In this document: positions 2,003-64,000 of the stretch, piece after piece
How the letters are laid out: each line of letters begins with the position of its first letter
How positions within the stretch are numbered: position 1 is the first letter of the stretch
Source: Henricia sp. BOLD:AAB3569
Lineage: Eukaryota; Echinodermata; Asteroidea; Spinulosida; Echinasteridae
Assembly: GCA_037783545.1 (NCBI GenBank)
Contig: JBBELK010000384.1
Coordinates: 744,001 to 808,000, forward strand
Length of the DNA stretch: 64,000 nt
Direction: 5' to 3'
Made by a program: the position numbers and the translations under genes
Notes under the pieces: generated by a model
Told to the model about the DNA's origin: nothing
Database searches by the model: none
Seen by the model: only the letters and a program-made list of their open reading frames with translations

Positions 2003-9680
<7,678 letters not shown>

Positions 9681-15600: not shown

Positions 15601-18600
15601 TTTGTCTTGGTGCGTGATGGCCCGGCCGTACTTGAACCCGGCCGATATTTGTCATCTTCATCAGTACTTAGTTCACTATCACTAGTTAGTTGCGATGCTA
15701 CGCCGTGGTCGTCATTTTCGTTATCTTCATGCATGCTGCTGGCAGGACCGACGTCACTGCTGTCGCTATCACCGTCATCTGTAGTCGTGTCGTCAAGGTT
15801 TGATGCCTTCAGAAAAAAACCAACAATAATTTAAGAGTTTCAATGCAAAATGCAGAAACGTGCACAATTCCATAGTGATTATACTTCGGGGCTGTGTTCT
15901 AAACACGCGGACATTGCAAATGTTTGCAACATTCACCAACAACAGGTACCCGGCTTTCCATAGACGAGTGCAAACCAGAAACTAAGAGTCTAACATTTTT
16001 ATTTGTTTGTGACAAGTTCAGGCAACATTTTCTTCATTTTATTTATTGAATCTGTTGATTGGGCGCTTATAAACGCGGTACGGGAAGGTGATAATTCAAA
16101 GAAGATCTTCACAACGTTAAAACCACATTGCCATTCCCTGACTGGTCCCCGGTAGTCCGACCCGCCGCAAGACTTACACGGTCTATTGATCATTTTTAAC
16201 CCTTTCAATATTACGTATACATTACCTTCTCTGCTGTGGGACTGAGTGCAATGTATTTACTCATGATTATCCCCTGTTCAGTCTTAACGTGGCGCTGAAA
16301 TAAAGTGATAAAATGATTATTAGGCCGTGTCTGAATTATTTAGATTACACACGAGTCTATGGAAAGTGATCAAGCCTTTTACCTAGCATCTACTATCGAC
16401 TCGTTTGTAATTTTCAGTTTGTCGTTTAACTCTAAATTCCCTCCAAACTACCTTTTTCGGAAAGCAATGTGCATCAAATTAACACGGGAAAAGGCTGTGT
16501 CAATCCACCCTAATCATATGATTTGGATGCAGTCTCAATCATTCTTTCTGATACTGAAATTACAGATTCCCAAAAAGTACCCATGACACTGTAGCTCATA
16601 AGCCTGAAGAAACGATCAGTTTTAGACGAGGGAGGACAACCCCTACACAATGTAAATTCGGTACCTGCGGACCCGCTTGGACCCTATATATCGCAAGCTA
16701 CGTCCCCATGTTACAAAAACGCTATATAGGGTTGTCCAAGTTAATGGGACTAACACAATGTTGTATTTGGGAAACCCAGGGAATCAAGCAGGGACTGAGA
16801 ACCCAATCCACATACTGAACCAGACGGGATTCGAACCCAGGACCACAGAGGTGGAAGGCAAGGGAAGTACCACTACGGCAACATGATCCAATGCAATCCT
16901 CATGGGATACATCGACTTGTAATGTAAAACACACAGCCTTAGACTAGACTGGCTTGCTTTCCTACCTTTATTAGGCCATAGACTAGAATGGCTTCCTGTC
17001 CTACCTGCATTAGGCCCTGGACTAGACTGGCTTCCTGTCCTACCTGTATTAGGCCCTAGACTAGACTGGCTTGCTGTCCTACCTGAATCAGGTCCTTGGT
17101 TAGGCATGACGTATCGGCCCGTAATGCAAACATGTTATGCAGACCAAACAGTTCGCCTTGTTGTTTTTTGTCCCCAGCGACTGCAGTGAAGTATCGGATG
17201 GGATTGTCCGAAGTGACTGCTGCACTTGCCAATTGCTGCGTGAAAAATCCACAACTAGCTGTTAGACTGTGAGCTGATAGAATGTGTTGTTAACGTCAAA
17301 TTACCATACCTCATTTTCACTGGTCCATTCACCATCATATGTCAATGATTAGTTTTTGCTGTTGACAAGGGCGCTCAATATGCACATGGGTCAAAATTGG
17401 TTAGCAGTCAAAATTGTATGTTAGCAAGAGTAGCAGAACACCAGTCAATTGTAATGCACATTACATATGATTTTGACTGCCGACCCATTTTAACAAGGAA
17501 AATTAATTTTGGATTAAGCAAATTTTTCTGCTAAACAGCTTTATGAAATTGGCCCCTGGTTGCATGGGTATCAGTTCGGCTTCACCTCGGGAACTAGTTT
17601 GTCAATTTATAATACCAAGGGAGCTACATGTAATATTGACTAGCCACCCAAAATAAACCATCTTATAGACGAATCCGGTAGCTAAGAACTCCTTCCCTGC
17701 ATGTCCGCCATAACTGGGGGCCATCCTGTGCCATGAAGTGTGCATTCTGTGTTGTGTTAACATGCGCAATCAACACTCATGTGCTGTGCTTGCACATTTT
17801 ACGTTCTACACAGGGATTTAGTTTGTCGATGACTTCAACTGTAGCCTACAACTTGTGTGGTATGTTACTAAGTGTTTATAAAGTAAGAGAAATAACGTAC
17901 AACATTAAAATCAAAATACAAAGAAAATACACAAATACACATAATAGAAAAAGCATCAACATCTTAACAACATCTCAAGACATGTTAACATTTCACAGTT
18001 CCACTAACCTGCTTATAAATTTGTCTGAGGTACATGTTTTCTTCGATGGAGCCAGTAGAGATCAGCCGATAGACCCTCACGTCTCGATGCTGGCCGATAC
18101 GATAGGCTCTGTCTTGTGCTTGCAGGTCGTAGGATGGGTTCCAATTGGGGTCAAACACCACAACGACATTGGCACCAGTTAGGTTGAGTCCTAGCCCGCC
18201 GGCTCTGCTCGGAATAAATCAAGTGGGTAAAATGTTGTATCTGAGGCCGGGGTGACACAGACAAATTCCTGTAATTACTCGATTGTGATACAATTGTAAT
18301 ATTTGTAACGACAACCGGGGTCACACGACATACTTATTGTAATCGGATTGCAATTGTATAATAAAGTCAAGTTACACTCGTTACAAGGTCGTAATCGACT
18401 TGTGGCACATAACACCTTTATTACCCTCACAGGGTGGAGAGAGAATTTATGCCAAAAAGCTCAACATACAACAATCTTCATCATACATTGTAGGGTACTG
18501 TACACGCACTATGGCAGTGCCTGGATCTGAATCCACAACCTGTTGAATCATACAAGTACGACGCACCAGACTGCTCGGCCACAGTACTCCAATCATAATT

Positions 18601-21600
18601 CATAAATACCTAAGACAGTTTTACTCTTTCCTATTGGTTGAGAACATGTCACATAGGAATTCTTAAACCGCACTTACTTGGTTGATATTAAGAAGAGAAA
18701 AATATCCGGATCCGTGTTGAATTCATGGACGTACTTCTGCCGATCCTGTGGTGGTGTTTTACCGTCGAGACGCCGGTAGACGTAATCGGTCGTCTTAAGG
18801 TACATCTCAATGATGCCAAGGAGTTGTGTGTAATAGGAGAAGAGTAAAACCTTGCATCCTTCTTGCTGGAAGACGCACAGGAGTTTCTCCAGAATCTGAC
18901 GAAAGAAATTAAAACCTGTATACAGGATTTGCCATGTCCCAAAAGCTGGATAAATCATTCGACTGGAAAATCTTACTCAAATGGAACACCGTTCCAACTT
19001 CTTAAATTATCAATTCCGATGCTCACCTGCATTTTTCCACAATACGACGGATCAGACAGTGTACAGAACCGAGCCGCTCGGCTCAACGCGACAAACTGCG
19101 GATGACGTGCGAAGGCAATATCGCAGTACTTCCTGGCCTTCTGTCGTTGTTTGTCGGACATTTTAACGTCTGGCATGAGCAGAGCGACGTGATTGGCTAC
19201 TTTGATCAGCAGACTCATGAAGCTCATCGTTAGCGCTTTCACTTTTTCACCTTCGGAATTGTACTGAGGAAAAAAAAAAATCAATTCATTTATTTTAAGA
19301 TAACTTAAATGGTGCAATTTTATTTTCAAATTAAACAAAGGCTATTTGGCTTAACCTCTGCAGTGTTTTTAAAAAAATGTCAAAATATATTTGGACACAC
19401 AAAAACTGCACATGCCCGAAAGCAAATTTAATGCAGTGTAGTTCACCCGGCGCTCAATGCACGCAATGCATGCAACCGAACAAAAACAACTCAGTGCACA
19501 GCACTTTGAAAAATGCACACAACACATGTAGGAAAATACTCTGCGACATTTATTTTTGAAGAATTTTGGGAGTTTTACCGATTTACTCAAAAAGGTTGGG
19601 CCACTTCAGGTCCCCAAGCAGTATCAAACATACTCTTTAAGATTTGCAAAACACACTTTAATTCCCTTAATAATGTACAAGTTGCACTTGTTTAGCACAA
19701 GATCATTTGTGTCTAGGGCATACTCCTATAACCAACCTTGTAGCAGCATTTGACGCGTGTTAACTGACTCCCACAATCACATATCTCTTTCTGTTTCAGC
19801 ACAAGTTGCATATCGTCAGATTCCAACAATACCTTGTAGATACTCAGCTGCAACTCGGTTAGTTTACAAAATACCACCTTCTCATCTGGTAAAGAATAAA
19901 ACCAAAAACACAGGCATCAGCCAGTGAAATGTTCCCTCAAGCAAAAATGGCCAATAAGTCAAGTTTTTGCGACCATAAGAATAAAAGAGTAAAAAACCAA
20001 AATATTTGTTTTAATTTTAATGGGACAGATAAAGAAACAAAAGAGGAAATCAGCTGATCAGCTGAAAAGTTGCATGTCTGTATAGAGTAATAACCAGTGC
20101 ACATTTGGAGCAAAGTTGGCCGTGGTGCCCCTCCAGTTGGCATTAGTGACCTTTGACCTCCTTGTTTTCATAATGAGGAGGCAACAAAAAACCCATAGGT
20201 CTCAACATATCACCAACCACCATTTTTTTCTTTTGGTTTGGCATGGTTAGGCAACTAGAAGAACACAATACTTGGTGAATGACGGAATGATACTCTGGGA
20301 ACTGCTAGATTTAGCAAAGTTTTAGCCATAAACCCACCTTTGGTCGGTAGTTGATCACTAATAAGTGCCTTGGTGCGCCTTAACATCCAACCATCTCTCA
20401 TCTTGGCAAATTCATGGGATACTAGCAAAAGGACACACAAAATACAAAGATGTTTATAAGATTTTGTTATGGCAAAGTACTCAAGTAATACCGAAGAAAT
20501 TAAAGGAACACAACGGCTCACTGTTTACATAATTTAGTGATGTAGCATCATTGACAAAATGTCTCGTAATTACCTAAAAAAGCTTAAAATTTATATGAAA
20601 ATGGCCAAAAGTGAGCTTATACTCTTTACCAGCTGTTGCAACTATCGTGCAAGCGTCACGACCCGTTGTTCAAGGGACTATCTCCGTTGTTCGAGGGACT
20701 CTAGTCGACTATAGTCGCTTGATTGAAGTTGTTGATCAGCTGATTAAACAACCTCATACTCACTATAATTCCTTCTCATTCGATATCAGTATCGTCCGAA
20801 TCTATTGCCCTGAGTTTGAGGTTGAGCTGCCTGGGAAAATACATATAGACTTGTTCCCATTCCCTACGTAGTCTACAGGATGGCGATCAGTCGAGGGAAT
20901 GTGAGGCGGTGCAGCAATAGAGGGCGCTGCTTAAGCTGCCGCAGGAAAAAAAGGATTGACGAGCATGCTTGAAATCGACACGCGCGCGCGGGACCAGAGA
21001 ACGAACGTATCTTGTTTTTGGCCTAAAAACATGATCTTAATTGAGTGATAAACACCCACCTTTCCTACTTTCGGCCAACTCTCGTTTATTGGCGTGGAAT
21101 TTCTGTCCCTTGGAGATAGCCTCCTCAAAGTGGTTCTTGAAGTCAGGCAAGGAACCTAGACAGTTGGGGTTGGCCCTAAAATGGAGAAAATGATATATCC
21201 TTTGTGAGAAAATGACAATTCAAGATGAAATTATATAAATCTGTACGCACACATTTTGTTTACACGGGTACCTTAATGTGAATGAAACTACGCCCCTGAA
21301 TACTATGGGAAAAATGTCATCCATGTTGGTCAGTTGAGACTCCATACACTAAGCCTGTAAAAATCCTTAGCCTTTACAAAGAAAAACTTGAAATGTTCTC
21401 ACTGTTAAAGGTTAGTTTATATTAAGGCTCGTCTACAAGGACCAACATGAATTTGAAACTTGTTGGGCGGTACATGGATGTGTTCGACCGCGTGAACCAA
21501 CATTTTCCAGCACATCTTGACTGCAGTTGGTTGCTGCCTTCACATGACAGGCGTTCTAATCTGCTATTGGCCCGTTTCTCCAACAAGCTCCAACAACTTG

Positions 21601-24600
21601 TTGGATGATGTTGGGCGTTGTCTGGAGTGGCGTCTACACCATCCAACTTTCGGTCGGCCGACATCGCCAGACAGATGTTGGTCCTTGTTGGCCAACAAAT
21701 GTTGGCTCGTGTAGACGGGCCTTCACACACATCGTCAACCACACATCGAGATAAATACCGTTTGTAAGTTTCCCAATCCTGTGCCAGTGTCTATGTACCA
21801 ATGCTACATAGACACCACTGTGCTCCAGTTTGATGGAATGACCCATTTATAAAAGTACGGTAAAATATCTCCTTTGGGGTTACATACCAATCCAGCACAC
21901 ACCACAGCTCCGAGAGTTTATTCTGCAGCACTGTACCAGTCAAACCGTAGCGACGTTTGGTGTTTATTTCCTTCAGTGCTTGAGTAATCAGCGATCCCGG
22001 TTCCTGACAACAAACAACAGAGTGTTTCAACTGAACCTTGTTGGACTAGAGCAGAGCAAGTTGATGCATTGAAAAACTGCAGTTTCTTCAAACATTTATT
22101 TTAACATTGATTCTTTCAACCATATTGTGTATTAGTGTTGGACAGCTAATAGGTGCCATATCTCAAATTTACAGATATTGCACTCTTCCAGTGCAGGGCA
22201 CAGGAGTAAGGTTATAATTTTGTAACACCCCGCTCTCTCCGCCCCCTTACCCCGCCCCTTACCCCACCCCCTTACCCCACCCCACCCCACCCCACCCCCC
22301 CCCCCCCCTACCCCCCCCCAAAAAATAGGTCATCGCTAGCTGCTGATAACAGATTTCACAGTATTTCACCTTGATTTTGTGCACTTCATCCACGATAACT
22401 CCAGCCCATTTCACCTTCAGCAGAGAATCCTAAAATGATAAAGATTACATCATGCACAACAAATTAATGAGCATTCTACAAATAGGATATATAACAAGGT
22501 TGGCTGGGTCGATGTAAAAGGCTCATGTGGTTATTTCATTTCTACCATGATTAGGTACGATAGAAAACCTCAAGGAGTATACCACTGTGCCTCATAGCTC
22601 AGTTGGGAGAGCATCTGCCCGGTGTGTCAGAGGTCTTGGGGAAACCTGGGGGAGTATACCACTGTGCCTCATAGCTCAGCTGGTAGAGCATCTGCCCGGT
22701 ATGTCAGAGGTCTTGGGGAAACCTGGGGGGAGTATACCACTGTCCGTCATAGTTCAACTGATAGAGCATCTGCCCGGTATGTCAGAGGTCTTGGGGAAAA
22801 CCCGAGGGAGTATACCACTGTGCCTCATAGCTCAGCTGGTAGAGCATCTGCCCGGTGTGTCAGAGGTCTTTGGGAAACCTGAGGGAGTACACCACTGTGC
22901 CTCATATCTGCCATGTGTGTCAGAGGTCTCGGGTTGGAATCCCGACGAGGACCATATTATTTTTCTCTCAAATCAAGTTTGGTTGTTTCATTTCCATGGT
23001 TATTAGACATCATATGGAAACAAAAATTAACCGAATGAACTTAAATGTGAGAAAACATATTAGGCAATAAAATGAATAAAGTTACTAGAAATCCTTACAA
23101 TGTAGATTCTGTACGTTTCATAGCTAGTGATGACTGCATCCAACTTTCCCTTCATTGCTTTCCATAATGTCTCCTGACGCTCACGTCCGTGGTATTTGCT
23201 GTTATAAATGAACAAAACAGGGGCGGTATTCAAACAAAAACTAGTCAAGTGAATCTATGAACTATGGTACACAAAATTACTCAGAAGGTGAAAAAACAAA
23301 CATTCCTTTCTCATTTTGATTGGATTGTAGCACATGTGCTGTGGATAATATGGTGGACGGCTGTTGGTACGTATAGCAACATATGAATGGCAGTATTTTA
23401 TAAAAATAACTACAACCGTGGAGGAAAATATCAATGTTTCAACATACCCCGTGTTCCAACTAACCCCAGTTCCCCCTAACCCATGCTATTTTAATATCTA
23501 CATACCCAACAGTACAGTAGGTCCACGTATCAAACTCATCTAGCCAGTTGTACATGACTGAGGTCGGGCAGATAATGAGAAACACGTCCGATGATTTGCT
23601 ACTTTTTGTCCCCGTTTTCTGTAAAACAGTAAAGTGGAAATTAACGACAGAAACATTATCTAAGAGAGTTTTTAGAGGGTTTTTTTTAGTGAAATGTTGG
23701 ACAATCAAGTACCATATATTTGTCTTTTAAGGCAAAATTTGTCTTGGATAAAACTAAACTCATGTTGTGTTTTTTACCATTGCTATTAAAATGAAGGTTT
23801 TTTTTTTACAAGTCGAAGTGAAATTTTGGGTCATTGCATTAACCGCGATTAAAATGCTAATTTACTCAGTAATTAGTAAGGATATTGGACACCAAGAAAT
23901 CCACAGTACCTTCATGGATGACTAAACACTGTCAGAAATAACTTTTTACTAGATTGAAAGCGAAAAGGCATGATCTAGTGCAAGCAATGAGAACCGCACT
24001 TGAGATTTGCGTTAAAAGAAATGGGGAGAAACCTGGGGTGGATTGCAATAAAGAAAGTTAAGATGTCTTAACTCTTAAGACATCCTAACTAAGACATCAT
24101 AGATTAATTTTGTCTTGCAATAAGATTTTGTGTGTCATAACTTGTATCTTGAAACAGACTTAGGACACCTAAATTCAGTTATGACAGATGATGTCTTAGA
24201 CTTAAGACGGTTATATTGCAATCCACCCCTGAAGGAATATACCACTGTGCCTCATCTCATGTTTGACAATTTTTTTTTTTTTTAATATTCAAGTGGCCGT
24301 AGACCCCTAAACATCCACAAAGCTTCACCTTTTTCAAAAACTCTGGAAGAGATCTCTGGCAGTCTTCTTTTGTTCCAGTTTTTCTGAGCACCGCACACAA
24401 GAAGGCTAGAACCTGGAGATAAAGAAATCAAGATATAAATTACATTTTCTATCAAACTTATATCAAAAGAATGAGCTGACCTCTGGAGCAGCACATCTCA
24501 AAAACAGCCTGAGATGTGCAGGAGCTCAGGGAGGCACTTTAGGCAGAGTGGCACACCCTGCCTCAGTGGCTCTTACGGAGGCTGGTGCAGTCAGCCTTGC

Positions 24601-27600
24601 CACAAGAGGTGGTCATACACGTTATTGACTGATCAAATATATTACATCTGAAAGATGTACCATATTTGATTTTTTTGGTCAAAGTACAATTTGCGTTTTT
24701 TAAAAACCATATACATACCTGGACAGTTTTACCCAATCCCATGTCGTCGCCAAGGATCGCACCTTCTCCCTTCTGATAGTGCCGATACAGGAACCTTACA
24801 CCCTCCCTCTGGTACTCACGCAGATAACGATTAATGGTTGCAGGAACCTTGAAAAAGGAAACAAAAATATGTTGTTTCATTTTATATAATGTGAAATCTT
24901 TTCATAAGAACCTTTTCAACAATTTCCTGCATGCAGTTCACCTCAACTCCCATGATTCTACCGACATGCTTTGTTATGCGATTTTGCAAAGTCGAGAAAA
25001 ACATGACTTTTACCTGGATAACTGAATCAGGCCCATCTTGAGACAGAACCAGAGGCACCTTAGCACTGGCATTAGCAACTGACCTGGATAACTGAATCAG
25101 GCCCATCTTGGGACAGAACCAGAGGCACCTTAGCACTGGCATTAGCAACTGACCTGGATAACTGAATCAGGCCCATCTTGAGACAGAACCAGAGGCACCT
25201 TAGCACTGGCATTAGCAACTGACCTGGATAACTGAATCAGGCCCATCTTGGGACAGAACCAGAGGCACCTTAGCACTGGCATTAGCAACTGACCTGGATA
25301 ACTGAATCAGGCCCATCTTGAGACAGAACCAGAGGCACCTTAGCACTGGCATTAGCAACTGACCTGGATAACTGGATCAGGCCCATCTTGGGACAGAACC
25401 AGAGGCACCTTAGCACTGGCATTAGCAACTGACCTGAATAACTGAATCAGGCCCATCTTGGGACAGAACCAGAGGCACCTTAGCACTGGCATTAGCAACT
25501 GACCTGGATAACTGAATCAGGCCCATCTTGGGACAGAACCAGAGGCACCTTAGCACTGGCATTAGCAACTGACCTGGATAACTGAATCAGGCCCATCTTG
25601 GGACAGAACCAGAGGCACCTTAGCGCTGGCATTAGCAACTGACCTGGATAACTGAATCAGGCCCATCTTGGGACAGAACCAGAGGCACCTTAGCGCTAGC
25701 ATTAGCAACTGACCTGGATAACTGAATCAGGCCCATCTTGGGACAGAACCAGAGGCACCTTAGCGCTGGCATTAGCAACTGACCTGGATAACTGAATCAG
25801 GCCCATCTTGAGACAGAACCAGAGGCACCTTAGCACTGGCATTAGCAACTCCAGGAAAATATGGTTTCTCCATTTCCTCACTGCTAAAACCTGGAAACAA
25901 TACAAAATGTATGATAAGGGTCATTCCACTTTACCCATTAGTGCACAAGGCGGTTGCTGGCGACCGCTAAAAACAACAGAGTTCCAAAACTATCTGTGCA
26001 TCAAAGGGTTACTTATTATAATCGGATTGTAATCGTATTACAATAAAGTGGGGTCAAACGAGCAACACAATCTTGTCATCGTATTGTAATCCATCCCATA
26101 GTCCATTGCGGTGGCTTCCTCCGTGCGTGCTTACTGTCTGCAGTGTGCCGCGCGGGAAAAGTAGGCCAGGTGTGCGGTGAAGCAGAAAGTACGTGCGCGA
26201 GGGGAAGGTTACCGCAGGGGCTTATGGAATGGATTGTAATACATGTACACGTGTGTTTTGCCAATTTATTGTAATACGATTACAATCATATCACAATAGA
26301 ATGATGATAATTCTCATCGTTGACCGATTGTGATACGATTACAATAGATTTGGGGTCACACAGAAATAATCTTGTAATCGTACTATAGTAATACTACAAT
26401 GAATTGGGAAGTCGTAATTCGTCGACCCTGGCCTAATACTAAATTAAAACATTGACTATGCTTACAGCAAGACATGTATCGGTACCTACCTGAATCCAGA
26501 AGGTCAAATGAGTCATTTTCACTTGGAAGTCGGACTGGTAGCTCGGAAGAAACATGTGAAGGAGTCGTTGTGATATGTCTGATGAAATAAAACATTGTAT
26601 GTAAGGGATGATATACTGGCAACATTGCAAAACTGCAAAGAAATGGCATAGCTTAAGATTATAGGGCGCTTTCACAGGGGGTCAAAAGGTCACAGGTCAC
26701 GGGTCACTATTGCTTGTCCTCCAGATTGGGAGAGAATAATAGAGCCACGTGGGGAAATGCACATGGCTGCTAGCAGAAAGGCACGTGGCTCTCTCTCGTG
26801 ATCTGGAGGACAAGCAATAGTGACCCGTAACCTTTTGACCCCCTGCGAAAGCGCCTTATTCTCGTTCTCCAGTTTAAACAAGGCCTTAATTCTAACAGCA
26901 CAAAAAATGTACAAAAATGCTTGCCACAGAAGCAGTTTTCAGTACACGTATATTGTTTGACTTGTTTCACACTAAATTCCCTCCATGCTGCATTTCATTG
27001 AGGCGACGCGCTACATGTTTACTCGCACTTCGTGGCCGTGCTGAAGAACCTCCTAGGTGGCTACGGGGCAACGACTTAATTCCTTTCAAAGATCATACGA
27101 AAGAAGTCCATAGAATTTCTTTACCTCGCGGGATACACTGCATCATTGTTCTCTTTGACTTGTCCCCCGACAGCAACAGGGATTTTCCTCTTTTTTCTTG
27201 TTAGAAACCCGGATGATGCTGATGTTGTAGAGGACGGGGTGTGGTCCATGCGTCTTGACGAGGTCGGAGTGTTGGTGACATCACATTCATCTAGCCAATC
27301 AGAATACTTGGCCCTGTGGCACACACAAACACAAGGCGTATTTAAAGCTCTATTTAATCATTTGCAGTGACCCAACAATTTTACTTTAAGAAAACAGCGA
27401 CAGTGTTGATAACAATGGTAAAAACACCACATGATTGTTTTCCTGTGTAAATTAGTATACATGTGTACTACCTTTGTAGGAGAAACTGCCAACTAAATTT
27501 TTTTTTATTTTATAAATAATTTCTTTACCATTCACTGAACACAAAAACCACACACAGCTAGCAGTTTATACAAATGCGATAGGAAGTGAATGCAAAACAT

Positions 27601-30138
27601 GGCAAAACGACAAGCTAATTTTGGTGAGTTTTACCGATTTACACAAAAAGGTATTTATGAATGGGATTAAAAGTAAGTTTGGCCAGACTTAGACAATCCG
27701 TTTAAAACCGGCTAGGATCCTGGGCACCCAGGACCCTAACCGGCCAGGACCCTAACCGGCTAGGGTCCTGGGTGCCCAGGACTCTAGCCGGTTTCAAACG
27801 TATGTTTAAGACTGCCCAAACTTACTTTTAATCCCTAATTTAAGACTAGCCATGTGACCTGCTAAGGTATTTTTGAATTTGAATTAACAAATTACCTACA
27901 TACCTTAATCTCTCCTCTTCATTGACATATTTCAGTGGACTCGTGTCTGCAGTGCTTGTACTTGCAGATGCAGCACTTCCTGTTTACCAAAACAGAACAT
28001 GAAAATTGTAATTGTCCTGAAAGCGAGAAAGGCTCAAAGAAACTAGCTGACCCTTTGTATGAAAAACAAGTTGGACAAGACAGATAGGTCTCATTTTATA
28101 AAGTTTTTTATCACTTTAATCCATGCTAGGTAATTGTACCGCTTAGTTAATCATCAAAACTAACTTTGAAACCGGCCAGGGCTCGGTCGTTGGTAGGGAG
28201 GACTGTGCTGAAAGGAGCGAACACAGAAGGCCGTGAGAGTACATGTAATTGTGTAAGTAACCCAACCATGCCATGTTTCAATCTGTTCCTGTATTTATTT
28301 TTTTACCAAAGATTGACATGCCAGAAGGGTCCATCTATGAGAGTAGAATTGATCCAAACAAAAAATAAATTTTAGCTAGTTTTTCCACACTGATCTAACT
28401 GCTACAGCACTAGAAAAACAATATAAACATGCCAAACGTGTCTGTGCTTGTCAAACTGGCATTCAGAGACAACATCAAAGAGACTATATCTCTTGCAGGT
28501 AGAGTTACGATCTTGGTTCCGAAGTCTACATGCATCAGCGAAGAGGATGGTGGGCTTGTTTGATGCAAAATAGGAGGATAGAATATCCAGAACGAATGCA
28601 AATATTTGGATTGAGATTTTCGGTTTTTCTCAACCCTATTTTGTGCATACAATATACTATTTACCAGAGCTGAAATCCGAGCATGTGCCAGCCCTATCAC
28701 GATGTGGTCTGACTTGTCGTTTCTTAAGATGCCTAACATCAACGATTTCATCTTCTTCCTCAGTGAATCCGCTGAATCGCACCGACGCCATGAGATGACC
28801 CTCCTTGTTCTTAGTCATGTACTTAATGGAGGCCCTGTAGTACAAGGCATCTCCCGAGTAGGGCGCCATGCACTTATCGCCAACGTTCCAATCTTCTGCA
28901 AACAAAAGTGTGGTCTATAAGTGCACATAAAGCTGGACTCTGAATCGGGGGAGGGGGGAGGGGGAGGATTCAAGACCCACTATGGCCAACTAGTCCGTGT
29001 CCCTAAGCAAGACATTTAATCTCAATTGCCCAAGTGCCTCCCTGAGCTCCTGCACTTCTGAGGCTCTTTGAGAGATGCACATGGCTCAAGCAGCTGATTT
29101 CACGAATCCCTTATGCACTGCGTAAGCCCACTTGCGCAACTTTTTATTGCATAAGCTGAGCATCATTCCTGTGATAATTACATGCAAGCCTATGGAGTAT
29201 GGGGCTTATGCCATTTTCAAAAGTTGCGCAAGCTACGCAATTTTTCGTGAAATTGGCTGCAGAGGTCAGCTCATTCCATCAGGCATCAGGTTGATAACCA
29301 AACGACTTGGTTTTCTGAAGCCCTTAACTGCAGGATTCTCCCAGAAACTGGAAATGTCACTGTGGGAATCACTTTGTTCAAACAGGTCTGGACTTGGAGG
29401 AAATCACTCAAGCAGAGCAGTCTTGAAAGTGATTCTAAAGTGATTGGTCCATCTTTCCCTATTTATCGGCAAGTTCACTGTATTCAATAGACTTCTGTTC
29501 TGATCAAGAATTGATATTTAATAAAAAGTGTAAACTTCTTTCTTTTTATATTTTATATTAAATAAAATAAATATGGTACTGGTAGGCCCTAGCATCCGTA
29601 TAGGACCTATATGAGTATCTTTCCAAAATCCAACATTATTAAAAGGTAGTATATATATACAATATGATTGGTAAACCGTTACAAATAGTCTCACCTCCCT
29701 GTGTGATTGAAGGTATGCATGATTAAAACCAACCTGAGCAAAAATCAGCTTTGTACTTCGTCTAACTTTTGAGAAAACGTCAAAGAATTGTTGGACCACT
29801 TCGCCCTGAACTACGGCCTGTGCACGAAGTTGTTTTGGGGCGAAGTGGCATTTGGGCGAGGTAGTGTTTGAACAAAGTGGTTTCAGGATGAAGTGCCTGC
29901 AGGGCGAAGTGGTCCAGGGCGAAATGAATTGGTCCCAATGAATTTACGCCTCGTGAGACGAAAAATAATTGTTTTGCTCATTTCTCAAAGACTATAGCAC
30001 TTCAGACAAAACCATTTCAGGGGAAGTTTTCTACCGTCATCGTGTTTATATTGTGTAAATCTGTGAACATTTCTGATTCCTCTAGATACCAATCATGTAT
30101 TCTACCTTGAAGTCCAACTCACCATTTTTTCCGTCCAT
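11520..30138 (-). CDS. ERCC6L2: ERCC6L2-like SNF2-family DNA-damage ATPase, complete, 25 coding exons
   Basis: Exons 5' to 3': 30138-30123, 28895-28665, 27979-27904, 27313-27125, 26578-26490, 25890-25784, 24847-24719, 24412-24329, 23618-23506, 23198-23099, 22429-22370, 22003-21888, 21175-21060, 20421-20338, 19885-19737, 19263-19027, 18895-18678, 18204-18009, 17235-17083, 16294-16226, 15806-15531, 14600-14339, 13678-13524, 13238-13087, 12600-11520. They sum to 4458 nt (1485 aa; human about 1550). Exon 2 is the N-terminal Tudor-like domain ([19 protein letters not shown]). Exon 7 has Walker A DDMGLGKT (about 270-277). Exon 11 has the Walker B box, here DEVH rather than DEAH. Exon 12 has GLTGTVLQN, exon 14 GWMLRRTK, exon 17 YRRLDGKT and exon 18 DRAYRIGQ (about 736-743). 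The rest is an acidic, Ser-rich linker and the conserved C-terminal HEBO-like region ([17 protein letters not shown]). Start ATG at 30138 gives MDGKN before a phase-1 donor. The family acts in chromatin at DNA breaks. Exon 6 and exon 19 donors lie in tandem arrays. Confidence 0.94.
13294..13492 (+). repeat. Dispersed GGCCGTCCCGGTTACGA repeat, copy 1
   Basis: About 200 bp from TAGGCCGTCCCGGTTACGA to TTGCCAAAATGCC, in ERCC6L2 intron 23 (between exons 23 and 24). Near-identical copies lie at 38369-38561 (+) and 48258-48457 (-). Confidence 0.8.
13895..13962 (+). repeat. tRNA-like sequence
   Basis: AGTGGTTAAGATGCCTGCC followed by GGGTTCGAGTCTCGCCCGAG resembles a tRNA D-arm and T-arm. There is no convincing full cloverleaf, so I take it as SINE-derived. 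A related piece lies at 48860-48900. Confidence 0.5.
14190..14292 (-). mobile_element. Antisense tRNA-derived SINE head
   Basis: On the minus strand it reads TACCATGGCCGAGCAGTTTG and GGGTTCGATTCCCGGCCG, the head of the same SINE as 11093, interrupted before the body. Confidence 0.65.
16785..16890 (-). repeat. Antisense tRNA-like sequence
   Basis: The minus strand reads GCCGTAGTGGTACTTCC and GGGTTCGAATCCCGTC. A second copy is at 35855-35925. It is tRNA-derived rather than an intact tRNA gene. Confidence 0.5.
16943..17100 (-). repeat. Four 39-40 bp tandem copies spanning the ERCC6L2 exon 19 splice donor
   Basis: The end of exon 19 (CTGATTCAG) and its donor GTAGGACAGCAAGCC are followed by three further copies in which ATACAG/GTAGGACAGG or ATGCAG/GTAGGACAGG recreate donor-like junctions at about 17044 and 17005, and a weaker one near 16965. 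The translated exon frame meets TAG in the first copy after the donor. Confidence 0.8.
18250..18370. repeat. AT-rich repeat with GATTGTAATACAATTG motifs
   Basis: Contains GGGGTGACACAGACAAATTC and GGGGTCACACGACATAC with repeated ATTGTAATCG. Related sequence at 26010-26420 suggests a small palindromic element family. Confidence 0.5.
18505..18592 (-). mobile_element. Antisense SINE head fragment
   Basis: The minus strand reads GTACTGTGGCCGAGCAGTCT and then a degraded B box (GGATTCAGATCC). It is similar to 14190-14292. Confidence 0.5.
21424..21722. repeat. Foldback MITE in ERCC6L2 intron 12
   Basis: Termini AAGGCTCGTCTACAAGGACC and the inverse CGTGTAGACGGGCCTT. The interior is rich in CAACAAGTTGTTGG-type palindromes. 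Confidence 0.75.
22225..22320 (+). repeat. C-rich simple repeat
   Basis: Irregular CCCCTTACCCC/CCCCACCCC units ending in a run of C, between ERCC6L2 exons 11 and 12. Confidence 0.8.
22566..22953 (+). repeat. tRNA-like 78-bp tandem array, five copies plus terminal full unit
   Basis: GAGTATACC blocks at about 22575, 22652, 22730, 22808 and 22885. Only the last unit continues into a B-box-like GGGTTGGAATCCCGACGAGG. It lies in ERCC6L2 intron 10. Confidence 0.85.
24035..24229. repeat. Foldback MITE, GGGGTGGATTGCAAT termini
   Basis: GGGGTGGATTGCAATA at 24035 is inverted at 24229 (TATTGCAATCCACCCC). The interior repeats AAGATGTCTTA-type blocks on both arms. Confidence 0.8.
25014..25852 (-). repeat. 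Twelve 70-bp tandem copies of the end of ERCC6L2 exon 6
   Basis: Units repeat every 70 bp with only a few substitutions. The first copy in the transcribed direction (25852-25784) is the coding end of exon 6, translating as [20 protein letters not shown]-type sequence that aligns with the segment preceding INRYLR in ERCC6L2. At each junction CAG is followed by GTCAGT, a possible donor; after the twelfth copy it is followed by GTAAAAG. Reading from the first copy into the second gives a TAA immediately (GTC AGT TGC TAA), so only splicing after copy one keeps the frame. Confidence 0.9.
26010..26425. repeat. AT-rich element with ATTGTAATCGTATTACAAT motifs
   Basis: Multiple inverted ATTGTAATCGTA/TACGATTACAAT blocks around a GC-rich centre (26100-26210). 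It looks like a foldback element related to 18250-18370. Confidence 0.55.
26663..26855. repeat. Foldback MITE, AGGGCGCTTTCACAGGGGGTC family, copy 1
   Basis: Arms of about 85 bp are nearly complementary (GACCCGTGACCT, TATTGCTTGTCCTCCAGAT). Copy 2 is at 56547-56737 with the same central hairpin GCTGCTAGCAG. Confidence 0.85.
27663..27835. repeat. Foldback MITE with CCGGCTAGGATCCTGGG centre
   Basis: GGGATTAAAAGTAAGTTTGG at 27663 is inverted at 27816-27835. The centre has CCCAGGACC/GGTCCTGGG units. Confidence 0.8.
29089..29262. repeat. Foldback repeat, GCAGCTGATTTCACGAA family
   Basis: Left GCAGCTGATTTCACGAATC, right inverse TTCGTGAAATTGGCTGC. A partial copy is at 9841. Confidence 0.7.
29791..29916. 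repeat. GCGAAGTGG short-repeat hairpin
   Basis: TTGGACCACTTCGCCCTGAA at 29791 pairs with AGGGCGAAGTGGTCCA at about 29901; GCGAAGTGG variants repeat between. Confidence 0.65.
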
Positions 30139-31843: not shown

Positions 31844-34800
31844 ATGACAGACCTCAGCGAGAGAATCAACTCTTTCATTTCCGATCTCAAGAAGGGGTAA
31901 GTTTGTATTATCAAACTAAATAGAAAACATTTTCAAAGGAAAAAAAAACAAAACAAATGCAAATTAAATATTCTCACCATAAGATCAAGAAGTCTGAGTG
32001 AGAGATGTAATATTTTATTGGTCAGATATGTTTATATAACCACCTCTTGTGGCAAAGCTAACTGCTCCAGATTTAAAGACTTGAGCCACTGAGGCAGGGT
32101 ACGCCACTCTGCCTGAAGTGCCTCCCTGAACTCCTGCACTTGTAAGGCTACATAGGAGGCATGTGGATACAGTGGTCAGCTCATCCCATACAGGTTGTCA
32201 GACTTGGGCAAGTCTAGGTAAGGCGCAAAAAACGGCCGTATAAAAACGGCATTTTTCACAGGGTTGCCGATGTCTAAAATACAAAGTAGGCCTATGATGT
32301 TTTTTCGTTAAAATAAAGTAAATGCTTAAAAAATGCTTTAACAATATAACTTTAATACGGACTTTAATATACATTTCACTTGTTTATTTGAATAATGTTG
32401 TTCTTTAAATTTAGGAGAGTTCGTGGGTCATATGATGTGGCCTATCAGACGTTATCCCTGTTGCGTAGAGTTGTCGCGCAGACGCGCTGGGCTAATGCCG
32501 CCGAGTTGATGTCACGCATACGACATGAAGGATTACGTATGATGAATGCGCAACCACCGGAGTCGGCCGTCGGAAACATGGTTAGACGAGTTATTAAGAT
32601 CATCCGGGAAGAGTTTGCTGCGTAAGTTGTGTTCTTTATACCCAATTATCACAAACAAGATATTTTACATATATACTGTGATGTAGGGATGGGAGTTTAC
32701 GGTTAATTAAGAAACCGGTTTGCAATTCTTTGAAGTGTCGATTAAAGACGCAGGCTCGTCAATACAACACGAACAAATTGATTGTGCCACGAATTTCACC
32801 GCACTCTATACATTGCCTGAGTAGGGCAGCTGCTCTTACAATCCCAGAGGGTGGAGGCTCATTATTTATGCGAGCTCGCCACAGTGTGTTTATGGGTCAT
32901 TCTATAAATTTGGGGTCCAACGTGTGACATTTTCCTGTCCCTGTTACACCCGACATACTGCCATTTGCCATACAAGTATTATTAAAAATGCCTTCAAAAC
33001 ATATTTTTATGAATTGTACTTTATGTAATCACTCCTTGAAATAGAAAGCATTTAAAGAATATGTCCTGAATTTACAAACTACAACATTTTACAAGATGTC
33101 AGACGTAACAGGGGACAGAAAAATTGGACCCCAAATTTATAGAACGACCCTATGCGTTGCTAGGCTAATCGAATCACGCGAGCGCGCGCTTAGTTGTGTG
33201 TGTTGTATGTCATTTGTACCAATTAAGAGTTCCCATATACGGTCAATTCAACCATCTATATGACACCTTCTTGAAGCAAATGTGACCATATCTGTAATAT
33301 AATGTGAATATGGCTGAAACTAAATGTCATGAATTTACAAAGGGTGTGTTTTCTGTGATAAATATCTGATTTCGAAAAGATACACACCCTATTTGCAGAA
33401 TAGACGAGGCTATTAGCCTGCACCATGGCCCTACACCCTTTGGCACCGTAAGAGCGGCTGCCAGGGCAAGGTATGGAGCGCAGTGAAATTTGTGGCACGA
33501 ATTTGTCTGTTGCGCATTGACGAGCCTGCGTCTTTAAGTCTTTGAAATTGGACATGGTGTTTTCTTTTTCATTTTGGAATTGTTTTCTTTTTGTCATTGA
33601 CCTCTCCAGACTTATCAAAGGTCAGAGTGTGGTTTCAGCAGATCAGCAACAATCTCTTCACGTAAGTTTCTACATGTATAGACAGATGATCTCATGATGT
33701 AGAAGCTAATTGGGTTGTTTACTCACTACACTGTGTTTTGGGTTCGACACTTGGTAGTGGTACCTGTGCCCTTGTGCAAGGCACTTAACCACAATTGGTC
33801 CATCCTTTGGACGGGACGTACATAAAGCGGTTGAATCAGTGTGTTGTGTAACGCACTTAGAAGATCCCAGAGCACTCTTTTGTGAAGAGCAAGGGGATTC
33901 CCAGGTGTCTCTGGCCGTCGGCTGCCAATGGCACCACCCACCTATGTATCTTGACTTTTAGGTGAAAGATACTTGTAAGCTTCATGGAAATCAGCCTACG
34001 GGCTGCAAAATGCAGTTCCATACACCCATTATAATATGCAGCACACGTAAACGTATTCACATAAAATATGCACTATAGAAATGTGATAAATAATAATTAA
34101 TAAATTGTCTTTATTACGATTACTGCGATGTATGTTCTTGTTTTTGTTTACTTTTTATGTATAGAAAATGTTGGTAGCTGAAGGTCAAGTTGAAGATTTT
34201 AGCATGCCAAGTCCCCATCTCAAGGTATCGTAGTATGTAAATGTTCAAAAAGAAATACTGAATGATTGATGCCTGGTCTGCTTTTGGTATTTGTGAAAAT
34301 GAGTGAAAAAGTTGCCAAGTTGCCTTCGCCTTACAGGTTTGAACACTTCCAACCGTAGATGGAGTATAAGGTGCAGGTGTACCCATGTATAAGGCGCCTT
34401 ATAGGCCTACACAGGTTATTACGGTAATGTTGCGAGGTAAATATTAGGCTTGGATGACTTCAGTGACTCTGATTCCAAAAACGAATCGCGATATATAAAG
34501 TGAAAGTCACCCTTTGTGCGTTACTAAGGTTACTGGATCTACACTAAAACCAGTGAACTGTTCCCCTGCACTTTAGCAATGAACTTTTCAGATTACCAGC
34601 GGTTGTTTAGACCCAGTTACTCTGACAACTGATGTTACACTTCAATACCATACAAAAACTGATTATTATAACCTACCCAAAATTATTTCCTAAAATCATC
34701 AATTTCAGAACCTGTTCAAATTACCTTACTTTAATGGAACAATAATTTGTGAGAATGTTACTTAGCATAAAACTTTGGAGTTCACAATTCTGTATTATGG

Positions 34801-37800
34801 TATGGTGTTTATATAGCGTGCATTTGTGATTTATCTCGTAGGCTCGAGTTATTGAAAGCATTAACGAGTTACTGACGGAACTAGAGGGTAGTGCCGATAA
34901 CATCGCTACACAAGCATTAGAACACATCCACTCAAATGAGGTTATAATGACCATGGGAAAATCACGCACAGTCCAAGCATTCTTATTGGTGAGTTGTTCA
35001 CGAATGTACTTTAGCTGGATGTATCCTTTTTGCTGATGAAGCTGGATAGTAGTACTGATAACATTGTTATGCAAGTGCTAAAACACATCCACTGATATGA
35101 GGTTATAATGACTATGGGCATTTGTTTACAAAATGTACTTTTGCTGTATGTGTTATTGTGCACTTTGTTTCTTGGTTATACTTCTCCTTAATTTCCAGAC
35201 TTTGGAGAGTACCAATCAAAAGTAATGCAGATGATGTGGGATTTTAGCTGGTAACCTGTTTTTTTTGGTGCTAAGCACTATTTTCAGCTAAACATTGCCA
35301 TGGAAATTGAGCTACCTGATTTATATAAATAAAATAAAATATATGATTTTTTTTTTAAATTTTAGAATGCAGCTAGAAAGCGTAAATTTCACGTCATCGT
35401 AGCAGAAGGCGCTCCGTCATATCAGGTATTGTTAGTCTCCTGTATTAAAAAATTTCAAACATTTTCTAGTGCAATACGGATAAGACTTTATAAATCTTCA
35501 GTGCAGAAATTGACAGTACCCAATACAATGCAATATTCATATACAATGAAACCTATTAAGACTAGAGCCACTAGTTTACCTTGATAAAGAAGCCACCTGT
35601 TTATAGTGGTCAGTTTTTTTCCTCTTTCTTATGACACCAAGAAATCCAGAGTACCTTAATAGATGACTTAGCACCGATAGTTCAAAGCGACTCTTTTTGA
35701 AATAGCTTTGCTCCAGTTTATACATAGGATTATTGGCTCAGAAAGGATTTTTAAAAAATCACTTTAACAATCCTTTATATAGGGCTCTCATTTGAAACAT
35801 GAATATTTATGATTGAATTGTTTTTTTTTCCAACCTGAAAATCCAAGCTACATATTGACCCGGACAGGATTCGAACCTGGGACACCGAGGTGGTAGGCGA
35901 GGAAAGTACCTCTACATGAATAATGGGAATATTTTAAAAAAAAATAAAATCTTGCACCTTTATCATAGTCACATTCGGCAATTGTGATAGTCACTAACCG
36001 TTAATTTCTGTGTTTTGTTTAGGGTCAAGAGCTAGCGACGCGATTGGCCGAGGAGAAAATCCAAACCACCGTCATAACAGACTCGGCAGTCTTTGCTATC
36101 ATGTCCAGGGTCAATAAGGTTATCATTGGAACTCACACGGTCATGGCGAATGGCGGGTAAGTTGTGTCGTTAAAGCCAGATTACATGATTGGAAAACTTT
36201 TAAAAACAGGATTACATAAACAGAATTACATAAACTAAAGAATAATGTTGATAAATGTAGTGCCTTTGATTAAAGGCACTAAATACACTTGGTAAATTGA
36301 ATGATTTACCTTATCTTTATCTTATCTTTATCTTAGGCTGAAAGCCGTGAGTGGAAGCTATGCCCTTGCACTAGCAGCAAAGCATCATTCAGTTCCTGTG
36401 AGTACTTGAAAAACAAGAAATACGCTCAGAATGTTTTTGCCCAATATTCCAAATGGGATTCTGGAGTAAAGAAAATAGCATAACCAGTATTTTCTTCTTT
36501 ATCAAAAATCACAGAAAATTGAAATGCCGTCTTTAACCCCTTCGTGACGGGGAACTGCATATGCAGTTTTAAGTGCAAATGTCTTGGGGGCGGTTATACA
36601 GAATTAGCCCATGGGTCAGTGCTGGTCTCTCAACTTGCTGGTTTGGGCTCAAGTCAGTTTTTAGTTTTTGACCTGTGACTTAACTCTTGAGATAATGAAT
36701 TGTGACCTGGACTTGGGAAATAAAATTGATTTACGACTTGAAATAAAAACTGGTTATCAAGTCTCCAGCCCCAGAGACATGTACATGTACTAAAACTGCA
36801 AGTGCAGTCTCCCGCTCCAGGGGAATAAATTGAAAAATGGTTAGCCACTGGAAAGGAGTAATAATTTGCATGCATAATAATCAAACGTTTAATTTATTTG
36901 TCTCTGTTTTCACAGCTGATTGTGTGTGCACCAATGTTTAAACTATCACCCCAGCATCTCTGCTCCTACGACCAGGTAAATGTCAGAATTAGGTAACTAA
37001 ATGAGTCGGCTTATTTCCTGAAATTCCAGGACTTAGACTCGAGTCTGCCTCGAGTCACATATTCAGTGATTCGGACTTGCATTCCACAAGGTCAATTTCA
37101 AGGTCATGGCAAACGTCAAAAAGGTTACTGTACCCAACATACTCAAATCTAAAATAATGGCAGATTTGGAATCATTGTCAAATTTCCTTTCCAACAATAC
37201 CCATTGTGTGAAGACTGGCTCAGTACTTCCTGGGATGAGGGTTAAAACATATAGGCAGCCACCCAGCTCCCTTTTCGCAAAAATTATGTGGTGCATATCT
37301 CCAAAACCACTGGTCCAATTGGTCTAAAATTTGAGATTTGGTGCTGTGGGATCCCAATCAACATGTACCAAGTTTCATCAAAATCTGAGATGGTTGGGCT
37401 TAACCTATTAACCCATTGAGTGAGTTGACACGGATTAACCCCTAGCGTTAGGGCAAAATGGCGACACCCAAACCGGTGTGATGTGTTTAAAGTTTGCACT
37501 TTAGTTTTCCATATCTAACTCTATATAAAAAGATATTCATCTTTACTTGTAAACCAGCCCCCAAAACATACACCATATTATAATTTGATTAAAATTAAAT
37601 TTGCTTTTTTTTTTTTGTTATCACAGGATGGTTTTAATAAATTTGAGTCGCCACAGGATGTTATGAAGTTTGCTGAAGGTGATGTTCTCTCTAAGGTTCA
37701 AATTCACAATCCAGTGTTTGACTACGTACCACCAGAACTTGTAACTCTCTATCTATCCAATATGTAAGTATTACTTCTGCTAAAGATATATGCTTAAAAA

Positions 37801-48400: not shown

Positions 48401-51400
48401 AAAACCCTGTGTACAAATTTCCAATATACGCTTGTAACCGGGACGGCCTAAAATGTAACACAAGTGTCCGTCCCGGTTACGAGCATATATTGGAAATTTG
48501 TACACAGGATTTTTAGAAAGGCATGTCGGGGTATCTTAATGACTCCGTTTGGAAAGGCTTCATACCTCATCATATTACCGGTTATGTTAATGCCCTTCAT
48601 TTTGGGGAAGCTGCATACCCGTTTCGGGGTATCTTAATGACTCCTTTTTCGGAGGCTGCATACATTATACCCGTTTCAAGGGATCTTAATGTCCTTCCTT
48701 TTGGGGATGCAACCTACCTCATCGTATCTGTTTCGAGGGATCTGAATGTGTGTCTCCCGATCCTGCATGTGGATGACTATTCCTGGAATGACTGGAAGTT
48801 TGTACTGATAATTCTTGAAGTCCTACAAAAACAAACCAACATTATTGTAATACATCTGTCTAGTATGCAGGAGGTTGTGGGTCCGAGTCCCACCTGAGCG
48901 ATTAAGTTTAACTCGCGTCGCTTTGAGAATAAGTGGCGCTGAGGGAATTTGGAGTGACACGACACGCTAAAAATCACAAAATCAAAAAGATGAATCTGTG
49001 AGTTTTAGTCCGTCGTTTTAATCAAAATTCCCTCCACGAGCGTCAAATTTACACACGTTAATATGTGAAAAGGCTCACTGTCAATCTAGCCTTACAGATA
49101 ATTCATTTATTGACTTACAGCAAGGAGATTCATAATGGTATGTCCAATTTCTCCAAAAACTGGCTTGCGGAATCGGACGCTCATTAGTGGACATGGGTAG
49201 TCTGTGGTAAGAAAGACAAGAAAAAAACATTTCAACACCAAATTTATGTTTTTGTGACAAGACCTGGAACACAGTTTCATACAGCTGGTTAACAGCTTCT
49301 GTTAACCAAGCATCAGGGTATCTCATAGACTTCATTAACTGTAAGCTATTAAAAATGTGCCTTAACCGTAGATAGTGACGCAACAATAGCCAGTTTCATA
49401 CAGCTGGTTAAGCACAAGCACACAGCGACCATAAAATAGCGCTTAAACCAAGCACGGCTTGTCTGCTAGGCATAGTTATTTTAGATAATGCTAAAGCAGC
49501 TCTATGAAATTGGTCCCTGGGCTCAGTTTTATAGTGTTGCTTACTGTAAGTATTAGCTGAAAAGGCATGCTTACTTTAGCAGATAAGTTGTGCTTAGCTT
49601 AAGCACAAATCTGCTGAACTACTTACATTTCAACTCAGCCCCAAGTCTAAGCAGCAATCGTAGAGGGAAGACTTTAGCCCAAGGAGTTTCCCACTTCTGA
49701 AGCAGAACGGCGAAGAGATAGGGAGGCTCCGGCAGTAAGAGCTTGTTAAGGCATTGGAATGAGGGTCGTAAATAGAGAAATCCACCGTGTTCACGACCAC
49801 CTAGGAAACTCTGACTGAATAGGCTGTGGCCCATGTGGGACACCGTCAAACCTGTACAGAATGGAATAATGGATAATGGCAATATCAAAGTAAAAAAATT
49901 GATTTGTATATTAAGCTTTTGCAGACCACACACACATGCTTTTTCTGTGTTGTTTTGGGAGTCAGATGCAGTAAGCGCATGTTGCACCTTTTCAAAGCAC
50001 CAATTAAATGCCTTAACAAAAAGCCTTGATGGAGTATACCACTGTGCCTCATAGCTCAGCTGGTAGAGCATCTGCCCGGTGTGTTGGTGGTCTTGGGGAA
50101 AACCTGAGGGAGTATACCACTGTGCCTCATAGCTCAGTTGGTAGAGCATCTGCCCGGTGTTTCAGAGGTCTTGGGGGTGGAAACCTGAGGAAGTATACCA
50201 TCGTAGCTCAGTTGGTAGAGCATCTGCCCGGTTTACCAGAGGTCCCGGGTTCGAATCCCAGTGAGAACCGTATGATTTTTCTGCACGTGACCATTACCTC
50301 TAGAAGCCTGTTCATACAGGGACTGTAGATGTTGAAAGATGTCCCTCGGAATCGTCTTTTCATCCGTAAGACACTCTAAGACAATAACGATCTCGTCTTG
50401 AGCAACTGTGGCCATTCCTTTGGTTGAGAAACACCAACACAGTCTATTCACACAGCAGTTTACTGGAAAAAAGAAACATGACACAATGTCTGAAAATCTT
50501 GCATAACATTAAAGAAGCGTGTCCAGATCACATTTTTCAGCACCCCCCCCTCCCCCCATTTTTCCCATGAGTGTTGAGATTTTGATACCATATCATTTGT
50601 CTAATTTTTCTCATCACCATTCTGTAATTTCGCGCTCTCAATCCATATATTTTCAAGGATATCGTCAAAAACCACCAATGTTTTGTAAACTAATTTATCC
50701 ATTCCATAACGCAGTGCAGTGATCAAACCAACATTTTTGCTTTCACATTCAAGTTTGGAGATTGCGGATTTTCTGTTTCCTTCCTGTGGATAATATTTAG
50801 AGAAGGTATTTCGTATGATTGTTAAAATTAGTAGGGCATCTGCACGTTAAGCAGAAGGTCCGCGGTTCGAATCCCGAAGGAGCAACGTTGCTTTTCACTG
50901 CATCCAGAATTACACTTCCATCAAGGATGGTTGAAGAACATGTGTTTAAAATCGAACAACTTGAATACGTGAAGCATTACAAGCCTCAAAGTCTCTAAAA
51001 TGTGGAATTTTCTGGTTTCAGTAACAGAAAGAATTTCAAAGAGTCGGTACTAATCAAGAAGTGACATCAAAATTAAAGGTCGACATTTTTAGGTATTATA
51101 CTTACAATCCAAGATTTTAACTCTGACAATTAGGTTTCTGTTCAAGGCAAAGACCACAGGAGGAGTGCTGGAATCTATAATTAGCATAAAAACAATCATA
51201 ATTAGCGTAAATAGTACATGTACCATCATTTCAAGAACTACCAATCTGATTTATTTGTTCTGTAAAATAAGCATATCTTAAAGGCCCTATAGATGATCTG
51301 TTTTTGAGCGATTCTGGGAATAAAACCATTATAAATCAAAAGAACTCATCCAAAGAAATTTCAGCTCCGTCAAATGTACCACGTCTTCTAAAAACATGAA

Positions 51401-63452: not shown

Positions 63453-64000
63453 GAGTTGGGAAGGTTAGGGTAATAGAGCTCTACTGGACCAAGTCCATCC
63501 AAATCAAGCCAAACCAGGTGTTGTAGTTCGATGAAGTTGGGAAGGTTAGGGTTGAGCCTGTAGAGCTCTACTGGACCAAGTCCATCCAAATCAAGCCAAA
63601 CCAGGTGTTGTAGTTTGATGGAGTTGGGAAGGTTAGGGTTGAGCCTGTAGAGCTCTACTGGACCAAGTCCATCCAAATCAAGCCAAACCAGGTGTTGTAG
63701 TTTGATGGAGTTGGGGAGGTTAGGGTTAAGCCTGTAGAGCTCTACTGGACCAAGTCCATCCAAATCAAGCCAAACCAGGTGTTGTAGTTTGATGGAGTTG
63801 GGGAGGTTAGGGTTAAGCCTGTAGAGCTCTACTGGACCAAGTCCATCCAAATCAAGCCAAACCAGGTGTTGGAGTTTGATGGAGTTGGGAAGGTTATGGT
63901 TAAGCCTGTAGAGCTCTACTGGACAAAGGCCATCCAAATCAAGCCAAACCAGGTGTTGGAGTTTGATGGAGTTGGGAAGGTCAGGGTTAAGCCTGTAGAG
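63453..64000 (-). repeat. 87-bp minisatellite, open in one minus-strand frame, runs off the window
   Basis: At least six units at 87-bp spacing, with the first unit split by the foldback element (its left remnant is at 62533-62558). On the minus strand it encodes repeated 29-residue units (LDGLGPVELYRLNPNLPNS). As 87 is a multiple of three, the open frame may be accidental; it lacks a clear start and known domain. Confidence 0.8.

Follow-up and report, generated by a model that had tools for sequence, protein, structure and literature searches.

A twelve-copy 70-bp minisatellite at the end of a coding exon of a probable ERCC6L2 helicase gene, most likely removed as intron

The window, a whole stretch of 64,000 nucleotides of genomic DNA from the sea star Henricia sp., contains on its minus strand a gene that probably encodes ERCC6L2, a DNA-repair helicase of the ERCC6 group, as judged from its predicted product. 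The gene model includes 14 exons, from exon 5 (partial) to the helicase C-terminal domain at 18009, and the modelled exons were translated without a stop codon, giving matches to the Pfam families SNF2-rel_dom (PF00176, E 2.3e-61) and Helicase_C (PF00271, E 2.6e-24). The best solved relatives of the modelled protein were RAD26 and ERCC-6. What the searches establish is an SNF2 protein of the ERCC6 group; the orthologue name ERCC6L2 is presumed from its fit to the features of that family. ERCC6L2 has an N-terminal Tudor-like domain; an open reading frame upstream (28657-28914), which is not joined to exon 5 in the model, gave a weak match to SMN_Tudor (E 3.2e-4, 21.2 bits against a cut-off of 22.7). 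The start of exon 5 was taken from the third-ranked exon chain, the translated model using 26571-26490, and for one intron the second-ranked donor at 21887 was chosen (total 9.0 vs 9.1) because it retains more conserved peptide. No second copy of the gene was returned by a best-candidate search of the assembly (21 matches): 14 matches fell on the helicase locus itself, the other seven, at 39-54% identity, are presumably other SNF2 genes, and a paralogue or haplotig free of the array described below was not seen among them. Upstream of the helicase, on the plus strand (window 32392-35036), open reading frames resemble exons of an eIF2B-type initiation factor subunit; the one tested by Pfam (34842-35036) matched IF-2B (E 1.1e-7), and the two genes could form a divergent pair.

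Within the helicase gene, twelve head-to-tail units of 70 bp were found at window 25014-25853 (Table 1). Tandem Repeats Finder (TRF) reported a single array at 25012-25850 with period 70, 12.0 copies, 98% matches and score 1608, in agreement with the definition of a minisatellite as head-to-tail units of about 10-100 bp. At a lag of 70 the array was identical at 753 of 767 positions, whereas the highest count among 200 plain letter shuffles was 231, and chance is thereby excluded. The twelve near-identical units given in a preliminary description of this DNA were thus recovered, and the span named there, 25014-25890, proved to be exon 6 plus the array. When the units were cut at the donors on the gene strand, units 1-12 ran from 25853 down to 25014; units 2-12 start with GTCAGTTGC and unit 1 with TGGAGTTGC. 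The first three bases of unit 1 belong to the unique exon, being TGG where units 2-12 have GTC, and copy 1 of the array forms the last 67 nt of the 107-nt coding exon 6. Beyond these first three columns, 5 of the 67 columns vary among the 12 units (16, 19, 43, 59 and 67), with a mean pairwise difference of 1.39 per 67 nt. At column 43, T is found in units 1, 8, 10 and 12, and every other unit has C.

Table 1. Features of the helicase gene around the 70-bp array (window coordinates)
Feature	Position	Strand	Basis
Exon 5 (preceding coding exon); donor CAG/GTAGGT at 26489, phase 1	26490..26578	minus	gene model
Exon 6, 107 nt, ends in array copy 1	25784..25890	minus	acceptor TTGTTTCCAG before 25890
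Array copy 1, coding, 67 nt common to other copies	25784..25850	minus	unit alignment
Copy-1 donor CAG/GTCAGT, sole open-frame donor among 12	25778..25786	minus	frame test
Array copies 2-12, 11 units of 70 bp, 770 bp, predicted intronic	25014..25783	minus	TRF and frames
Donor CAG/GTAAAA after copy 12	25008..25016	minus	junction sequence
Unique remainder of intron 6, 166 nt	24848..25013	minus	gene model
Exon 7, 129 nt, SNF2 domain start	24719..24847	minus	gene model and domain match
Eleven modelled downstream exons, SNF2 and Helicase_C, open and in frame	18009..24412	minus	translation and Pfam

The unit was not returned from elsewhere in the 740.7-Mb assembly by a best-candidate search, in which 12 of the 13 matches were the array locus and one matched the intron part of the query only. 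The array as a dispersed repeat was rejected, since no other copy appeared among these best candidates. In the unique part of intron 6, the stretch 24895-24979 (85 bp) is 88% identical to a segment of another contig (G000:C636:93220-93304), so that part of some repeat may lie in this short intron as well. The copy number of 12 rests on one assembly, and one contig of that assembly (C955, 48,576 bases) carries the mitochondrial COX1 gene three times at 16,221-base intervals, while a 16,221-base contig (C2104) carries it once. The COX1 gene is open over 518 codons under each of the genetic codes 4, 5, 9 and 13 and is interrupted under code 2; code 9, used by echinoderms and flatworms, gives the residues usual for COX1, from which we judge an echinoderm source to be probable. 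C955 has the appearance of a mitochondrial genome concatemer, and artificial repeats are conceivable for this assembly, by which one or two true copies of the unit might have been inflated to 12. The units differ from one another in an ordered way, however, and their distinct variants argue against a simple stutter artefact; eleven other arrays are also present in a 264-kb sample of the contig that carries the helicase gene. We regard an artefact as barely credible.

All 11 internal junctions of the array read CAG/GTCAGT, with the first intron base at 25783 and then at every 70 bases down to 25083, while the twelfth junction, after copy 12, reads CAG/GTAAAA at 25013. These are the junctions that had been given in the preliminary description, and its claim of a new donor at each of them holds as far as sequence is concerned, a donor-like CAG/GT being present throughout. 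The GTAAAA donor is probably the ancestral donor of exon 6, as it adjoins unique intron sequence, and the 166-nt remainder would then probably represent the whole intron before expansion.

For the assay of reading frames, each of the 12 donors was joined to exon 7 (24847-24719) and then to exon 8. Exon 6 opens with two bases that complete the phase-1 codon left by exon 5, which ends at 26490. An open frame was obtained from the copy-1 donor only (1 of 12), which joins exon 7 at 24847 in phase 0; the products of the other 11 donors all stop at one common TAA near the start of copy 2. Read-through from copy 1 adds V S C and then meets a stop in copy 2, the immediate TAA already noticed for two units read in the exon frame, and the array as a protein repeat made by simple read-through was rejected for this reason. 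Skipping of exon 6 was likewise rejected as a rescue, because it gives a frameshift and a stop. For the 11 donors the TAA sits 58-758 nt upstream of the exon 6/7 junction; nonsense-mediated decay follows a distance rule, and decay is therefore expected for these 11 products. The length of exon 6 is 107 nt via the copy-1 donor and 877 nt via the last donor, and the intron removed from the copy-1 donor is 936 nt long, array copies 2-12 included. Since only the splice site of the first copy gives an uninterrupted protein, copies 2-12 most likely behave, by frame, as an extra intron.

The protein alignments bear on the same join. The alignment to ERCC-6 begins with the final five residues of exon 6 (query 59 onward) and continues directly into exon 7, and the RAD26 alignment begins at residue 60 of the modelled protein. 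These alignments across the exon 6/7 boundary support, by a few residues, a join after copy 1. It had been proposed that copy 1 aligns with the family segment; this was seen for its last few residues, but not for the rest, as the Pfam SNF2 match begins downstream of exon 6.

Units 2-12 each span from GT to AG, and the CAG/GT junctions could be read as pairs of acceptor and donor, with removal in 70-nt steps, an exonic intron or in-frame pseudo-exons as the consequence. With the copy-1 donor spliced first and pseudo-exons of up to 300 nt allowed, 39 of the 219 combinations inside the array keep the frame through exon 8, including one of 45 nt. The acceptors required are weak, however: with the acceptor matrix used here the unit-end acceptors score at most 1.3, while the weakest of the 13 modelled acceptors of the gene scores 1.4 and the middle one 5.4, and the acceptor of the 45-nt pseudo-exon, scored in one unit, gave -5.5. 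In-frame pseudo-exons were thus rejected although the frame allows them, and use of the junctions as acceptor-donor pairs is extremely improbable. The preliminary view that survival of the gene depends entirely on splicing after copy one accordingly stands in part: a single donor of the 12 is open and skipping fails, but the 39 pseudo-exon routes, with their weak acceptors, are also open by frame. If the gene works, splicing after copy one is the best reading, as only the copy-1 donor keeps the frame among the 12.

One other possibility is that the gene is crippled on the sequenced haplotype, the expansion being a mildly deleterious or null allele in one individual. The failure of 11 of 12 donors by frame and the finding of one locus copy in the best-candidate search of the assembly agree with such an allele. 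We consider it quite improbable, since no stop interrupts the remaining modelled exons, copy 1 offers an in-frame donor of intermediate strength, and the unit variants suggest an array old enough to have diverged and re-expanded.

The strength of the donors was compared using matrices for donors and acceptors and the sequence of the 5' end of U1. By the donor matrix, CAG/GTCAGT scores 4.5 bits, above 6 of the 12 other modelled donors of the gene, and CAG/GTAAAA scores 3.5, above 5 of the 12, within a range of 1.8 to 6.8 for those 12; since these matrices had also served to choose the donors and acceptors of the gene model, the comparison is partly circular. C at position +3 is unusual in donors. 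The energy of the U1 duplex was -8.3 kcal/mol for the last donor against -7.5 for the array donors, and the predicted unpaired share was 0.51 for the last donor and 0.23-0.34 for the 11 array donors, copy 1 being among the lowest with 0.23. Both predictions, for U1 pairing and for accessibility, put the last donor, GTAAAA, slightly ahead. An RNA structure that hides the later donors is unsupported, the accessibility (0.51 for the last donor vs 0.23 for copy 1) going against copy 1. Because the matrix and the U1 energy with accessibility order the donors oppositely, sequence alone gives no verdict on the donor.

Position in the transcript offers a further guide. Short internal exons are preferred by the splicing machinery, while older work on duplicated donors favoured the intron-proximal donor in some settings. 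In a designed reporter library with tandem 5' splice sites, as far as the excerpted text of PMC6783452 describes it, the first donor was predominantly used when both were consensus, and was favoured when both were of equal strength; the stronger donor dominated when strengths differed, and the earlier evidence is described there as conflicting. As in the array, two equal donors in series compete in that library, but it is a synthetic reporter with two donors within a variable region of 147-162 nt (PMC6783452, in part), while the array has twelve natural donors over 770 nt. By analogy, the first-donor preference fits the use of copy 1. Copy 1 is therefore favoured by the library preference, by the shortness of the resulting exon and by its being the only frame-keeping donor, and the copy-1 donor is probably the main donor in use.

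Taken as a whole, the best explanation, to which we assign a probability of about three in four, is that the end of exon 6 was duplicated, that a donor was thereby placed at the end of copy 1 and that the resulting minisatellite is spliced out within a 936-nt intron. The process would have started when the terminal part of exon 6, running from AGTTGC to about CAGGT, was duplicated once in tandem, which would put a second donor, CAG/GTCAGT, at the end of the first copy. Joining of CAGGT to (C)AGTTGC by one such duplication accounts for the junction GTC if one base was added; alternatively, the duplication may have reached further into the intron, 6 bases being lost afterwards. With the frame unchanged and the new donor lying upstream, the spliceosome could have used it at once, and everything below would have become intron. 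The unit, then free of coding constraint, would have grown by slippage or unequal exchange to 11 extra copies (770 bp), lengthening intron 6 from 166 nt to 936 nt, while products of the other 11 donors would be degraded by nonsense-mediated decay and the array would be close to neutral. At column 43, the T shared by units 1 and 12 probably represents the older base, and the alternation of T and C from unit 8 to unit 12 suggests that units were added two at a time; together with the few unit differences, this alternation points to a recent stepwise expansion. We infer the duplication origin from a single genome.

The same twelve donors, being of similar strength, may compete with one another, and several of them might be used, most transcripts then decaying through the stop in copy 2 and the copy number shifting the productive share. 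That 11 of the 12 products are non-productive by frame would agree with such tuning. The first-donor preference, as reported in the excerpted text of PMC6783452, would however leave added copies nearly silent, and we consider tuning unlikely. In the sequence of one assembly, no features pointing to regulation were found, and the suggestion in the preliminary description that copy number or donor choice could tune the level of productive transcript is not supported. A stronger form, in which minisatellite copy number acts through competition of identical donors as a heritable dial on productive helicase mRNA, is very improbable; if true, a hypervariable minisatellite would set the share of productive mRNA of a DNA-repair gene.

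Among known systems, the closest kind is intron gain or extension by tandem duplication, of which the array is a donor-side variant with many copies. Introns arising by tandem genomic duplication are recognised by several features. A duplicated exonic segment with AG/GT is present here at 11 of 11 internal junctions, and the protein is restored when the added sequence is removed, by frame only, as the copy-1 donor leads openly into exon 7. A new intron position was not found, the array lying at the existing exon 6/intron 6 edge of the gene model with the single acceptor at 24847. In view of this location, and of the further donor below, the case is an extension rather than a gain.

In ATP2A1 (Hellsten et al. 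2011), as described in the excerpted part of PMC4974935, the new donor comes from duplication of a coding segment. As in the array, exon-derived sequence is there partly turned into intron and the protein is unchanged (PMC4974935, in part). The array differs from such a case, as far as the excerpt goes, in that an existing intron was seemingly extended at its 5' end, with no new intron position and the original acceptor kept, and in that 11 extra copies are present. In fission yeast, SPOG_01682 and SOCG_00815 contain introns of 24-nt tandem repeats, according to PMC3629103, with several tandem exon-derived units carrying proto-splice sites inside the intron, as here. From that partial text, the yeast introns are new, have AGGC sites, are built of 24-nt units, a length divisible by 3, and are supported by ESTs, the EST of SPOG_01682 removing more than the annotated intron; the unit of the array, in contrast, is 70 nt long and frame-breaking, spans an existing exon/intron edge and is read from genome sequence. 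In the potato RdRp gene, intron gain took place by a duplication crossing an existing intron-exon boundary, which the array also does, but, as described in PMC4974935, on the acceptor side, by one duplication and with a cryptic exonic donor, while the array is on the donor side and has 12 copies. No minisatellite with the donor of a coding exon in every unit was recognised among the literature matches listed, judged from titles and starts of abstracts and with subscription journals mostly outside. PMC12783039, in its excerpted text, describes minisatellites inside an intron and gives no precedent for an array at an exon end, and PMC8724738 was rejected as a precedent on a similarly partial text.

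The array illustrates clearly how the end of an exon might multiply while the gene stays intact: once a donor has been duplicated, every copy that follows it can become intron in a single step. With twelve donors 70 nt apart, only one of them giving an open frame, it is also a naturally occurring case in which to test whether the first of several equal donors is the one used.

The frequency of minisatellites was estimated in a 264-kb stretch composed of the window and the 200 kb to its left, on one contig of the 740.7-Mb assembly and not chosen at random. After merging of overlapping rows, 12 arrays with a period of at least 30 and at least 4 copies were counted, the helicase array included, covering 5.4% of the stretch. 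By extrapolation, if this density is typical, such arrays would number in the tens of thousands genome-wide, and some of them would be expected at exon edges. Given how frequent minisatellites are in the sampled stretch, it is no great surprise to find one at the end of an exon.

Tandem arrays with units of 78-81 bp are present at window 4017-4501, 22565-22906, 50027-50244 and 52956-53115, and also at G000:C384:596734-597405. Their units carry variants of TAGCTCAGCTGGTAGAGCATCTGCC, which we take to resemble a tRNA A box; tRNA genes behind these repeats were rejected, as ARAGORN reported none in the window. At window 63453-64000, running to the window edge, and at G000:C384:664509-666751, about 140 kb apart, seemingly the same 87-bp tandem unit is found in opposite orientation, on the strength of a visual comparison with the first 40 bases of the second consensus.
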